From Salinibacter altiplanensis (GTDB lineage Bacteria > Bacteroidota > Rhodothermia > Rhodothermales > Salinibacteraceae), in the NCBI RefSeq assembly GCF_002894645.1, contig NZ_NCQY01000017.1, positions 1 through 47,849 on the forward strand: a stretch of 47,849 nucleotides of DNA. The letters run 5' to 3'. The position numbers were made by a program, and so were the translations under genes. Shown one piece after another: positions 42,275 to 46,626 of this stretch (position 1 is its first letter; every line of letters starts with the position of its first letter). The notes below the pieces were generated by a model. That model did no database searches, was not told the origin of the DNA, and was given only the letters and a program-made list of their open reading frames with translations.

Positions 42275-42444
42275 GCGGCCGTGCGGTGTCCAGGACCCAC
42301 GCCGCTCCCCCCGGTCAAGAACAGACTGTCACAAGCACGACCCCGAGGCCTCTCGGAGGAACGGGCGGTGCGCCCCTTCGTACTCGTCTGCCCGTATTTT
42401 CATACCGGTTCTGTGACCGGCTAACTGATCTTCTGCTGTCTCTT

Positions 42445-43443
42445 ATGTCCACCACTGAGACCCGCGACCCGGAGTCCTCGGACGACACGCCTACCATGCC
42501 CGGCGAAACGGACCTGGGCGCCGTTGAGCCCGATCCCATTGGGCCCTCGGGCGACGGCGATCCCGGATTCGTCGAGCTGCCAGTCGTCGAGAACACGAAC
42601 CAAAACAAACGGGGCGAGCGCCCGGAGTGGCTCCGCGTCTCGCTCCCGCAGGGCGAGACGTACAAGGACGTGCGGGAGACCGTGGACGACCACGACCTGC
42701 ACACAGTCTGTGAGAGCGCCAACTGTCCGAACATGGGAGAGTGCTGGAGCCGTGGCACGGCCACGTTCATGATTCTGGGCGATGTGTGCACCCGCTCCTG
42801 CGGCTTCTGCGCCGTCAAGACGGGACAGCCCCAGGACGGCCTTGACTGGGACGAGCCGCGCCGCGTGGCCGATGCTGTCGGCAAGATGGATCTGGAGCAC
42901 GCCGTCATTACCAGCATCAACCGCGACGACCGCGAGGACGGGGGCGCCCCCATCTTCGCGGAGGTCATCGAGCGCATCCACAACCAGGGGGCCACCTGCG
43001 AGGTGCTCACGCCCGACTTTCGGGGCATGCGAGAGCCGTGCGAGACGGTCTTCGAGGCGGAGCCGGACATCTTCAATCACAACGTGGAGACGGTGCCCAG
43101 CCTCTACCGCCGCGTTCGTCCTCAGGCCAATTACGAGCGCTCCTTGAAGGTCCTCCGATGGGCAAAAGAGGAGGACCTGCGCACGAAGAGCGGCATCATG
43201 GTGGGCCTTGGCGAAGCGAAGGAAGAGGTTCTGGAGATCATGGATGACTTCGTCGAGATCGGCCTCGACGTGATGACGATCGGCCAGTACATGCAGCCGA
43301 CCGATCACCATCTCCCGGTCGAGGAGTGGGTGGAGCCCGAGGTCTTCGACTGGTACAAGGAGGTCGGAGAGGAGAAGGGGATCGAGCACGTCGAGAGCAG
43401 TCCGCTGACGCGTTCGTCCTACCACGCCGAGGAGCACGTGTAG
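42445..43443 (+). CDS. lipA: Lipoyl synthase
   Basis: A 332-residue radical-SAM enzyme that inserts sulfur into protein-bound octanoyl groups. The start MSTTETRDPESSDDT gives a 55-residue acidic N-terminal extension not needed by the family; a later start is possible but lacks a good codon nearby. The auxiliary-cluster motif is CESANCPNMGEC (Cys89, 94, 100) and the radical-SAM motif is CTRSCGFC (Cys115, 119, 122). FNHNVETVPSLY and the C-terminal SPLTRSSYHAEE, with the conserved Ser that binds the auxiliary cluster, are present. Its likely client in this window is the E2 protein with two lipoyl domains. Confidence 0.97.
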   Translation: MSTTETRDPESSDDTPTMPGETDLGAVEPDPIGPSGDGDPGFVELPVVENTNQNKRGERPEWLRVSLPQGETYKDVRETVDDHDLHTVCESANCPNMGECWSRGTATFMILGDVCTRSCGFCAVKTGQPQDGLDWDEPRRVADAVGKMDLEHAVITSINRDDREDGGAPIFAEVIERIHNQGATCEVLTPDFRGMREPCETVFEAEPDIFNHNVETVPSLYRRVRPQANYERSLKVLRWAKEEDLRTKSGIMVGLGEAKEEVLEIMDDFVEIGLDVMTIGQYMQPTDHHLPVEEWVEPEVFDWYKEVGEEKGIEHVESSPLTRSSYHAEEHV

Positions 43444-43738: not shown

Positions 43739-44716
43739 ATGCTCCGATCTGCCTTTCTTCTCCACACCCTGTTGATCGCCGTGGTTCTCGGCCTGGGCGT
43801 CGCTCCCTTGGCCGTCGCCCAGACCCCAGCCCGAACCGTGAGGGATGCGGTGCCCCTTGCCCCAGACGGCACCGTGACCGTCGACAACCACGAAGGCAGC
43901 GTCACCGTCACCACCTGGGAACGCGATCGCGTGCGGTACGAGGCCGAGATTATGCCGACCGACGAGGCCCCCAGCGCCGAAAAGGTAACAATCCGAACCC
44001 GAACGGACGACGACCGCTTTCGGCTCGTGACCGACCACGAGGACGGAGACGACGAGTCGGTGGTGTTTGGCTTCGACGAGGACGGATTCCGGTGGGGCGG
44101 CATCGACATTCCGGCGGTCCACTACACGATCAGGATGCCGCGGTCCACGGCTCTCCACATCGACGACCACGAGTCGACCATCGAGGTGACAGGCCTCGCC
44201 GAAGAGCTCCGCATCGATACCCACGAGGGCCCGATCACCGTCGCCGAGCAGCGCGGTGCGGTCACCATCGACAGCCACGAAAGCCCCATTTCCATTGCGG
44301 ACCAGAGCGGCGACGTGACGCTCGATACCCACGAGGGTCGCATGAACCTTCAAGACGTTGAGGGCCGCCTCTCGGTGGACACCCACGACGGAGACCTCAC
44401 GGTCGAGGGACTGGAGGGCGGTCTCCGGGTTGATACGCACGACGGGACGATCTCCGCGTCGTTCGCGGCGGTGACCGACGACGTGTACATCGATGCCCAC
44501 GACGGCGATGCAACTCTCGCCCTCCCCGCCACTGCCGGGTTTGACCTCAACACCGATTTTGATGACGACGTGGACGTGACCTCTGATTTCGACCTCTCCA
44601 CGATCCGGATTGGCAATGAGGAGGACGAGCTCAACTACCGAGGCGACGTGAATGGGGGCGGATCAGAACTGTACCTCGAGGCTCAGGATGGAGGTGTTGC
44701 CCTCCGTGCCCGGTAG
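43739..44716 (+). CDS. Exported DUF4097-like beta-solenoid protein with His/acid repeats
   Basis: A 325-residue protein starting at MLRSAFLLHTLLIAVVLGLG, a signal peptide ending near VAQTP. The body is a repetitive beta protein of the DUF4097 adhesin-like type. From residue 140 each turn has the pattern hydrophobic-x-Asp-Thr/Ser/Asp-His-Glu/Asp-Gly/Ser followed by a short strand. The histidines fall at 144, 162, 180, 198, 216, 234 and 254, an exact 18-residue period for six of them; earlier copies are at 51 (DNHEGSVTV) and perhaps 100. The last 70 residues are acidic (FDLNTDFDDDVDV). No enzyme motif is seen. It is likely periplasmic or surface-exposed. Confidence 0.85.
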   Translation: MLRSAFLLHTLLIAVVLGLGVAPLAVAQTPARTVRDAVPLAPDGTVTVDNHEGSVTVTTWERDRVRYEAEIMPTDEAPSAEKVTIRTRTDDDRFRLVTDHEDGDDESVVFGFDEDGFRWGGIDIPAVHYTIRMPRSTALHIDDHESTIEVTGLAEELRIDTHEGPITVAEQRGAVTIDSHESPISIADQSGDVTLDTHEGRMNLQDVEGRLSVDTHDGDLTVEGLEGGLRVDTHDGTISASFAAVTDDVYIDAHDGDATLALPATAGFDLNTDFDDDVDVTSDFDLSTIRIGNEEDELNYRGDVNGGGSELYLEAQDGGVALRAR

Positions 44717-44779: not shown

Positions 44780-45737
44780 GGCTCTGTCTGAGAATTATTG
44801 TTTCAGATACTCGCCGATGAAGGCCCACTGGAGCATCGCTGTGGAGCTGTCGCTCCCGTGTGGCTGGCTTTCTTCTCATAGCAGGTCGCAACTCGCCTAC
44901 GCTCCTTCAGGCGGCCCACCAGGCGTTCGACAACATTCCGTCGCTTGTATTTTTGCTCATCGCAAGTCGGAGGACGTCCGGCTCCGGTATGCATCCCGTT
45001 TCGGGCCGGAATTACCGACTCGATGTTCCGTTCCCAACACCACCGTCGGTTTTCTTTGGAGTCGTAAGCCCGGTCTCCCTTGGGCCGCCTCAGGCCGCTG
45101 CTTGGGCCGCCCGACAGGCCTCGGCACCCCCACGGCGTCCATTGCATCAGTGAAAAAGGCCAATTCGTGGCGCTGCCCAGCCGTAAGAAGAGCGGCCATC
45201 GGAAGTCCGTTGCCATCGCTCACAAGAGTGTACCAGAGGTGGAGAATCCTCCCCGGCCGTATCCGAGGGCAGAACTTACTCCCTCGTCTTCTCGGCTGGA
45301 CCTGTCCCCTTTTTATCGTCGGTCGGCCCACCGGCTGCCGAGCGGCTGGCCCGGATCGTTGTGCTGTCCACATTGAACTGGTCCCAGTCGATATGGCCCT
45401 CAGCGTCGAGTTCTCCCTGAAGCTTCTCGACAATCGACTGCAAAGTGCCATCTTCAGCCCATCGACGAAATCGGTCGTAGACAGTTTTCCACGACCCATA
45501 ACGCTCGGGAAGATCCCGCCAAGGGGCTCCCGAACGAAGAACCCAGAAGATCCCATTTACCACTTTCCGGTGGTCCTCGTAGGGCCGGCCTCTTCCGTCG
45601 ACTTCCGGAAGAGCATCTTCAATGCGATCAAATTGCTCATCGGTCAGTTCGTAGCGGCGACGTCGGGCCATCGGCAAATCTCAGAACAAGTCCACTTACG
45701 ACTCGACCTTCATACCAGCTTTTTGTCAGACAGTGCC
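44780..45737. mobile_element. Decayed IS5-type insertion sequence (958 bp)
   Basis: The element is bounded by imperfect inverted repeats: left GGCTCTGTCTGAGAA (44780-44794) and right, read inward, GGCACTGTCTGACAA (45737-45723), 13 of 15 identical. Both ends are flanked by TA (44778-44779 and 45738-45739), a likely target duplication. Inside is a minus-strand DDE transposase of the IS5 superfamily broken by several frameshifts, so the element is not self-mobile. Confidence 0.85.
44795..45671 (-). pseudogene. IS5-family transposase, multiply frameshifted
   Basis: The reading starts at MARRRRYELTDEQFDRIEDA (45671) and keeps frame to about 45290, covering the DUF4096-like N-terminus (GIFWVLRSGAPWRDLPERYG) and the first catalytic Asp in NVDSTTIRA. 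The frame then changes at least twice before LVSDGNGLPMAALLTAGQRH (about 45240-45075), again before GDRAYDSKENRRW (second Asp) and RRNVVERLVGRLKERRRVAT (Glu), and once more near 44850 before the end AMLQWAFIGEYLKQ. All DDE residues can still be found, but spread over three frames. Confidence 0.85.
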
Positions 45738-46347: not shown

Positions 46348-46626
46348 ATGGAAATCTACTGCCCAAAGTGCGAATGGGCGCCTCCGCCCAGCGCCACCTG
46401 GACCTGCGAGTGCGGGCACGCCTGGCACACCTTCGATACGCAGGGCCAGTGCCCGGAGTGCGGAAAGGTGTGGCGCGAGACGCAGTGCCACGAGTGCCAC
46501 GCCTGGTCGCCCCACCACGACTGGTACCACGACCTGCCGCCGGTCGACGTGGATGCGATCACGGAAGGAGAGGGAGCCACCCACACTGCGGAAGGAAACC
46601 GGCGAACTGACTTTAACTCTCCTTGA
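46348..46626 (+). CDS. Small zinc-ribbon protein
   Basis: A 92-residue protein starting at MEIYCPKCEWAPPPSATW. Its first 55 residues hold eight cysteines in CxxC or CxC pairs (YCPKCEW, TCECGHAW, QCPECGK, QCHECHAW) with several His and Trp, a pattern for two zinc-binding ribbons. The tail is acidic and polar. No enzymatic domain or membrane segment is seen. Such proteins often bind nucleic acid or protein partners; no function can be assigned. The AT-rich region begins at its stop codon. Confidence 0.75.
   Translation: MEIYCPKCEWAPPPSATWTCECGHAWHTFDTQGQCPECGKVWRETQCHECHAWSPHHDWYHDLPPVDVDAITEGEGATHTAEGNRRTDFNSP

Follow-up and report, generated by a model that had tools for sequence, protein, structure and literature searches.

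A histidine/acid ladder at one turn of a DUF4097 beta-solenoid protein, with relatives carrying another uniform residue pair at the same locus

The DUF4097 protein encoded at 43739–44716 of the window, which is the whole 47,849-base contig of a 3.59-Mb assembly from what we take to be a Salinibacter-like halophile, carries a like two-residue apex at one turn on almost all of its rungs, that of the N-terminal strand among them. This apex consists of a histidine followed by an acidic residue, and several relatives that adjoin the same housekeeping gene carry Tyr-Lys or His-Lys there instead. We consider it probable that the apex forms a homotypic ladder, which stabilises and decorates one edge of the solenoid and which is exchanged as a set.

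The protein (Table 1) matches the Pfam family PF13349 over residues 131–273 (42.4 bits, cut-off 22.9, E 6.8e-11), and its translation bears out the periodicity described in an earlier note on this DNA: His144, 162, 180, 198, 216 and 234 are 18 residues apart, with His254 following after 20, and the seven lie in the contexts DDHES, DTHEG, DSHES, DTHEG, DTHDG, DTHDG and DAHDG, all of the form D-x-H-[ED]-[GS]. The same motif (DNHEG) surrounds His51 on the N-terminal strand, which was absent from the list in that note. When the histidines of the mature protein were placed at random, an equal count of His pairs at one lag (10–40) was reached in 11 of 200,000 shuffles. The protein has the same residue on successive rungs, as is characteristic of the residue ladders of beta-solenoids. 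The corresponding 54-bp period is only weakly kept in the DNA (2.3 copies with 69% matches in Tandem Repeats Finder), which argues against a recent tandem duplication.

Table 1. Positions in the window of the ladder protein, its rung apices and the adjacent marker gene
Feature	Position	Strand	Basis
lipA (lipoyl synthase), same-locus marker	42286..43443	+	TIGR00510, 356.3 bits vs cut-off 310.25
DUF4097 / Toastrack protein, 325 aa	43739..44716	+	Pfam PF13349 E 6.8e-11, AlphaFold pLDDT 91.1
Likely signal peptide, residues 1-28, ending AVAQ	43739..43822	+	Judged by eye on translation
N-terminal rung apex DNH51EG	43883..43897	+	His positions, family alignment
Rung apex DDH144ES	44162..44176	+	His positions in translation
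Rung apex DTH162EG	44216..44230	+	His positions in translation
Rung apex DSH180ES	44270..44284	+	His positions in translation
Rung apex DTH198EG	44324..44338	+	His positions in translation
Rung apex DTH216DG	44378..44392	+	His positions in translation
Rung apex DTH234DG	44432..44446	+	His positions in translation
Rung apex DAH254DG	44492..44506	+	His positions in translation
C-terminal rung apex EAQ316DG; Gln here, His in 6/12 aligned family proteins, query counted	44678..44692	+	Family alignment

An AlphaFold2 model was obtained from a 28-row alignment (mean pLDDT 91.1, pTM 0.88), with a single low-confidence loop at mature residues 75–90. Comparison with solved structures using VIA-align gave 3lyc (Z 18.4), 3jx8 (17.7), 4opw (16.8; 220 aligned, rmsd 3.2) and 3ljy (16.8), followed by 3pet (14.9), 7muc_AM (14.8), 4qrk (13.3; 155 aligned, rmsd 2.2) and 4ygu (12.5), while other beta-helices were found from Z 10.9 downward, with 4nk8 (Z 10.9) as the top enzyme beta-helix. 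The entries 4QRK and 4OPW are structures named for Toastrack, a grouping which unifies DUF4097, DUF2154 and DUF2807 (PMC11237479), and the query resembles Toastrack both in its PF13349 match and in the fold of these two entries; we infer that the remaining high-Z entries are also toastracks. Foldseek placed 4qrk at the top (E 6.3e-9), yet the TM-scores over whole chains were low (0.24 and 0.32). A relative with Tyr-Lys apices (YK) was modelled at pLDDT 95.9 and matched the same eight solved entries at Z 13.6 to 15.2, with the next row at 8.1. When solved structures were searched by sequence, the 28-row profile gave two matches, both weak (E 0.055 and E 0.44), which were set aside. Translation, Pfam, model and structure matches all agree with the earlier description of an exported beta-solenoid, in so far as the start resembles a signal peptide and each rung takes 18 residues. 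In the model His51, 144, 162 and 180 adjoin a strand break, and His198–254 lie within an unbroken strand assignment; the constant 18-residue period, together with the predicted secondary structure (DSSP), suggests that the rung histidines would be stacked in line. The signal-peptide-like start differs from the intracellular location predicted for Toastrack in PMC11237479, and the DUF4097 domain of LiaG has been termed extracellular (PMC9239133). The query scored 45.3 bits against the LiaG equivalog NF049997, which has a cut-off of 285, and none of the PSP/Lia genes pspA, pspC and LiaI-LiaF was present among the 15 neighbouring proteins scanned, which make up a part of the neighbourhood.

A search of 100 genomes, its own one included, gave a match at E ≤1e-5 in 76, many of these being distant DUF4097 proteins. 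The His ladder was common to 13 proteins, query included, all from the window's own family and with two of them eroded (L044 and L046). At the seven query-aligned positions His occupies 78 of 84 internal-rung cells, with seven more cells being gaps, and it is present on the N-terminal rung in 9 of 13 proteins and on the C-terminal rung in 6 of the 12 that align there, the query being counted in both. The residue following the rung His is Glu or Asp in the family alignment, apart from two Gly and one Gln, and the pair is hence conserved in the closest homologues. The count of 13 omits L020, L002, the second frames on L010, L011 and L012, and L021; the omitted tandem and hybrid paralogues have mixed apices, and adding L020 lowers the His share. 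L020 (genome G001) belongs to the same clade and is without the His ladder, and is therefore a homologue of the kind that the earlier note had named as evidence against its reading, as L044 and L046 are in part, through the loss of rungs. The ladder is thus well conserved without being indispensable. A scan of a genome collection added one relative, 67% identical and seemingly from the contig G005:C69, which was kept out of the ORF sets.

Uniformity of the apex was also seen in the wider family. A sample of 175 distinct DUF4097 ORFs from 168 loci was condensed to 99 clusters and to 82 proteins with at least five turns, the turns being located by a profile blind to both apex residues; the loci fetched from the phylum-wide family search are a part of the matches listed there, and locus L005 had no frame passing the family profile. 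The normalised within-protein excess identity in the 82 proteins was highest at the two apex positions (0.43 and 0.51), followed by positions +3 (0.26), −1 (0.17) and −2 (0.13), with all others at 0.08 or below, and the apex peak was unchanged under five other settings, two of which excluded proteins whose commonest pair holds Gly. For the first apex column the observed value of 0.522 compares with a mean of 0.187 in 2000 shuffles (SD 0.008, maximum 0.215). The commonest apex pairs of these proteins include SG, GS, GA, MG, SD, SS, TN and VN, as well as YK, YS, FS, HK, HE/HD, SH, TH and AH. Small residues had been expected at this turn, and pairs solely of Ser, Gly or Ala are indeed the commonest type (38 of the 82 sampled proteins, as opposed to the His-acid pair of the query), but they are not a general rule. 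Non-uniform DUF4097 proteins are numerous (L107, L120 and L160, for example), and apex uniformity is therefore a tendency and not a law.

A His ladder at the first apex place, the form of the query, was found in 6 of the 82 representatives, and at the second place in 5; some representatives in a later non-redundant tally differ from those of the 82-protein comparison. Among 58 non-redundant DUF4097 proteins (from 90 loci among the phylum-wide matches listed) none had His at the query's apex position on at least four rungs, and three had it one residue later. Examples with His in second place (L087, L088, L090, L038, L066 and L072) are located elsewhere in the tree, past a branch with support 99. 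These six have AHG, SHG or THG on most rungs with a period of mostly 19, and their open frames each contain between 14 and 22 His. In L138, L142, L093 and L162 the apex type shifts along the protein (from SG via MG to YG in L138), as though like neighbours could occur in separate blocks.

The genes lipA and ndk were placed on the loci by tblastn, and the apex types were read from the masked-tree set. Next to lipA lies an HE/HD-type gene in six genomes (G000, G003, G004, G005, G016 and G022), an HK-type gene in G031 and a YK-type gene in G034 and G055, with a mixed, mostly Tyr copy in G033 (apices in turn YK, YM, YK, YE and HS) and a mixed hybrid copy in G010. The order lipA-DUF4097-ndk is found with HD (G016), HK (G031) and YK (G034 and G055) types, and ndk follows the gene in these four genomes and in G013, and is farther downstream in G033. 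On the fetched loci of the His-ladder genes of G002, G007, G009 and G012, and on that of L020, tblastn gave no match for lipA or ndk. In a quick, midpoint-rooted tree with masked apex residues, in which 14 of 45 inner branches had support under 80, the YK proteins are the first branches of a 32-row clade (SH-aLRT 99) and the His-acid proteins are nested deeper, with mixed-type paralogues and L024 falling among the latter. On this branching order the likely direction of change would be from Tyr to His, with reversals also possible. A search of 394 genomes of the phylum gave a match at E ≤1e-14 in 31, and the matches outside the order included mainly-YK ladders (L170, L175, L178 and L186) alongside SG types; with a YK protein as query, 17 of 114 genomes within the order had a match at E ≤1e-18. 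Since relatives have a different but uniform pair, the pair seems to be exchanged as a set, and structural stacking is a more likely basis for this than metal binding.

The rungs themselves are distinct, as seen from the residues flanking the apex. Ten of the 13 His proteins were used for this comparison, with L019, L044 and L046 left out; six rungs were anchored in the alignment, of which the YK, HK and FS rows miss one, and the values for these types are based on five. Between the His proteins and two YK relatives the flanks of the same rung were identical at 354 of 1200 positions (0.29), against 412 of 1920 (0.21) for different rungs within one protein; for the HK, YS and FS types the same-rung values were 0.40, 0.28 and 0.34, against 0.21–0.22 between rungs. 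The apex was identical across the rungs of one protein in 227 of 340 comparisons (0.67, and 0.67–0.69 over the different comparisons). Apex identity between His and YK proteins was 0/200, and also zero between His and YS or FS proteins, but these zeros follow from choosing the groups by apex type and prove nothing alone. The flanks hold rung identity across proteins and the apex is uniform within a protein, which indicates that each rung is old and has its own character, and that the apex is co-ordinated between them. If the 18-residue unit had recently been duplicated or converted, with an unselected apex, similar rungs could also result, and relatives do differ in their number of internal rungs (from about 4 to about 7), so units have been gained or lost. 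However, uniformity peaks at the apex and is largely confined to it, and the flanks of one protein are scarcely more similar to each other than to those of other proteins, so it is not caused by duplication of whole repeats; in 9 of the 13 His proteins the apex type extends to the N-terminal strand, which is not part of the repeats, and the repeat at DNA level is weak. We therefore regard recent repeat duplication as very improbable and rejected it.

If the homotypic turn-apex ladder that we favour is correct, apex side chains would be stacked approximately 4.8 Å apart along one edge, a spacing based on the period and the predicted secondary structure, and neighbouring rungs would select like residues via ring stacking and side-chain hydrogen bonds. 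Such selection would hold the solenoid in register and display a chemically uniform edge, which may serve as a binding or packing surface, either periplasmic or outside. Histidine would be a polar-ring substitute for Tyr, and Glu or Asp would replace Lys at the next position in lineages whose proteins are acidic in the manner of halophiles. Where lipA is on the locus of an HE/HD genome (six genomes), its net charge per 100 residues ranged from −4.0 to −11.4, compared with −0.3 (HK), −0.6 (both YK genomes) and −1.5 (G033), with a weaker contrast for ndk (−7.1 and −9.1 for HE/HD, −5.0 for HK, −1.4 and −4.3 for YK), all from a small number of genomes that are related to one another. The acidic residue at the second apex position may simply follow the acidic proteome.

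The earlier note had proposed a metal-binding or proton-sensitive surface. In a metal array a cation such as Zn, Cu or Ni would be bound by His and Asp/Glu from one rung to the next along the edge, with a role in storage, sensing or structure, and each rung does offer D, H and E/D, with the His and the acid being retained jointly in the family (His on 78/84 internal rungs). Designed amyloids bearing His also bind zinc, and PMC10008563 cites an earlier solid-state NMR model with rows of Zn sites along every sheet. The same source reports adjacent-layer imidazole nitrogens at about 4.7 and 5.7 Å in the cryo-EM structure of a catalytic amyloid, which was judged too distant for a catalytic zinc site. 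The pair is Tyr-Lys (two genomes) or His-Lys (one) at the same lipA-linked locus, and metal-binding chemistry is therefore not conserved there; for this reason the metal site was lowered from its place as first choice. None of the 15 neighbouring proteins scanned matched a metal-transport or metal-regulation family above cut-off. The scanned neighbours do include metalloenzyme families (amidohydrolase, M1 peptidase and adenosine deaminase), which were discounted as evidence for a metal role, and as lipA and ndk are housekeeping genes the gene context says little on function. These results do not support the proposed metal or proton role, and we consider a metal array unlikely. The idea may also be put more widely, with the toastrack edge as a one-dimensional comb whose chemistry is retuned by exchange of all rungs together, which here would be a linear cation-, metal- or proton-binding His/acid array on an exported protein and in its sister lineages, at the same locus, a Tyr-Lys comb for another ligand, and this too we think doubtful.

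A stack of His between acids could instead shift its charge with pH or salt and so alter binding or assembly, and His-acid pairs are indeed found in genomes with a more acidic lipA; the HK protein, however, has Lys and not an acid after the His, and such a switch appears improbable to us. A uniform edge might also be a surface for self-recognition, by which copies of the same paralogue would pack edge to edge while excluding other paralogues. Within a single genome the paralogues have different pairs (HE and YS in G012, HE and FS in G013, and HD, HE/QE and FS in G009), which is consistent with this, but we rate it as rather improbable.

The stacking of one and the same polar or aromatic residue has been described as a distinctive feature of beta-solenoids (PMC6027354), and the query resembles the ladders of pectate lyase and HET-s in having an identical residue at one place on successive rungs. 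The known ladders are of Asn, Ser, Thr, Tyr and aromatic residues, with no His named in the text available from PMC6027354, and differ from the relatives of the query, in which the ladder type varies as a set. In the leucine-rich repeat protein Crov588, His or Tyr is found on the surface at one repeat position, which in paralogues is taken by Thr or Ser (PMC9525666). A solved repeat protein with a His ladder thus exists, and there too His and Tyr share a position; it differs from the query in its type of repeat and in that acids are described for some of its repeats only, and no shared descent is shown in the text available. The zinc-binding catalytic amyloid peptides are similar in having His on stacked beta-strands, but they are designed, have two His per strand, and have a proposed site using a second peptide leaflet (PMC10008563). 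Titles and abstract openings of the DUF4097 and toastrack papers listed mentioned no DUF4097 ladder, which does not establish absence from print; a literature search for a histidine ladder gave a single paper, on leucine-rich repeat proteins, and one for an aromatic ladder in a parallel beta-helix returned no match.

The lipA locus provides a natural case of concerted change, in which relatives at one locus have distinct repeats and a pair that differs on all or nearly all rungs. The ladder swap makes selection by neighbouring rungs for like residues testable in a folded beta-solenoid, a question which also bears on in-register stacking in amyloid, and the apex pair gives a sorting character for many DUF4097 proteins, the function of which is largely unknown. 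Should the His/acid version turn out to bind a metal or protons, the designed His-bearing amyloids would have a counterpart in nature.

Several further observations were made on the loci. A small frame in the window (46348–46623, plus strand) has several CxxC pairs and matches heavy-metal, haem-binding and zinc-ribbon Pfam families, all below cut-off. The lipA-linked frame L021 (G010:C1, 1132–2325, minus strand) looks by eye like a hybrid in which the His ladder is gone, its first part resembling the G003 His-ladder protein and the remainder the adjoining tandem paralogue, as if recombined. In G003, G004 and G005 the gene after the His-ladder gene is a tandem paralogue of it. In the window its place downstream of the His-ladder gene is taken by an IS4/5-type transposase (DUF4096; 45279–45677, minus strand), and the paralogue of the same genome is found on another contig (G000:C21:3329-4420), together with a frame that in G004 is also found beyond the paralogue, which suggests a rearrangement.
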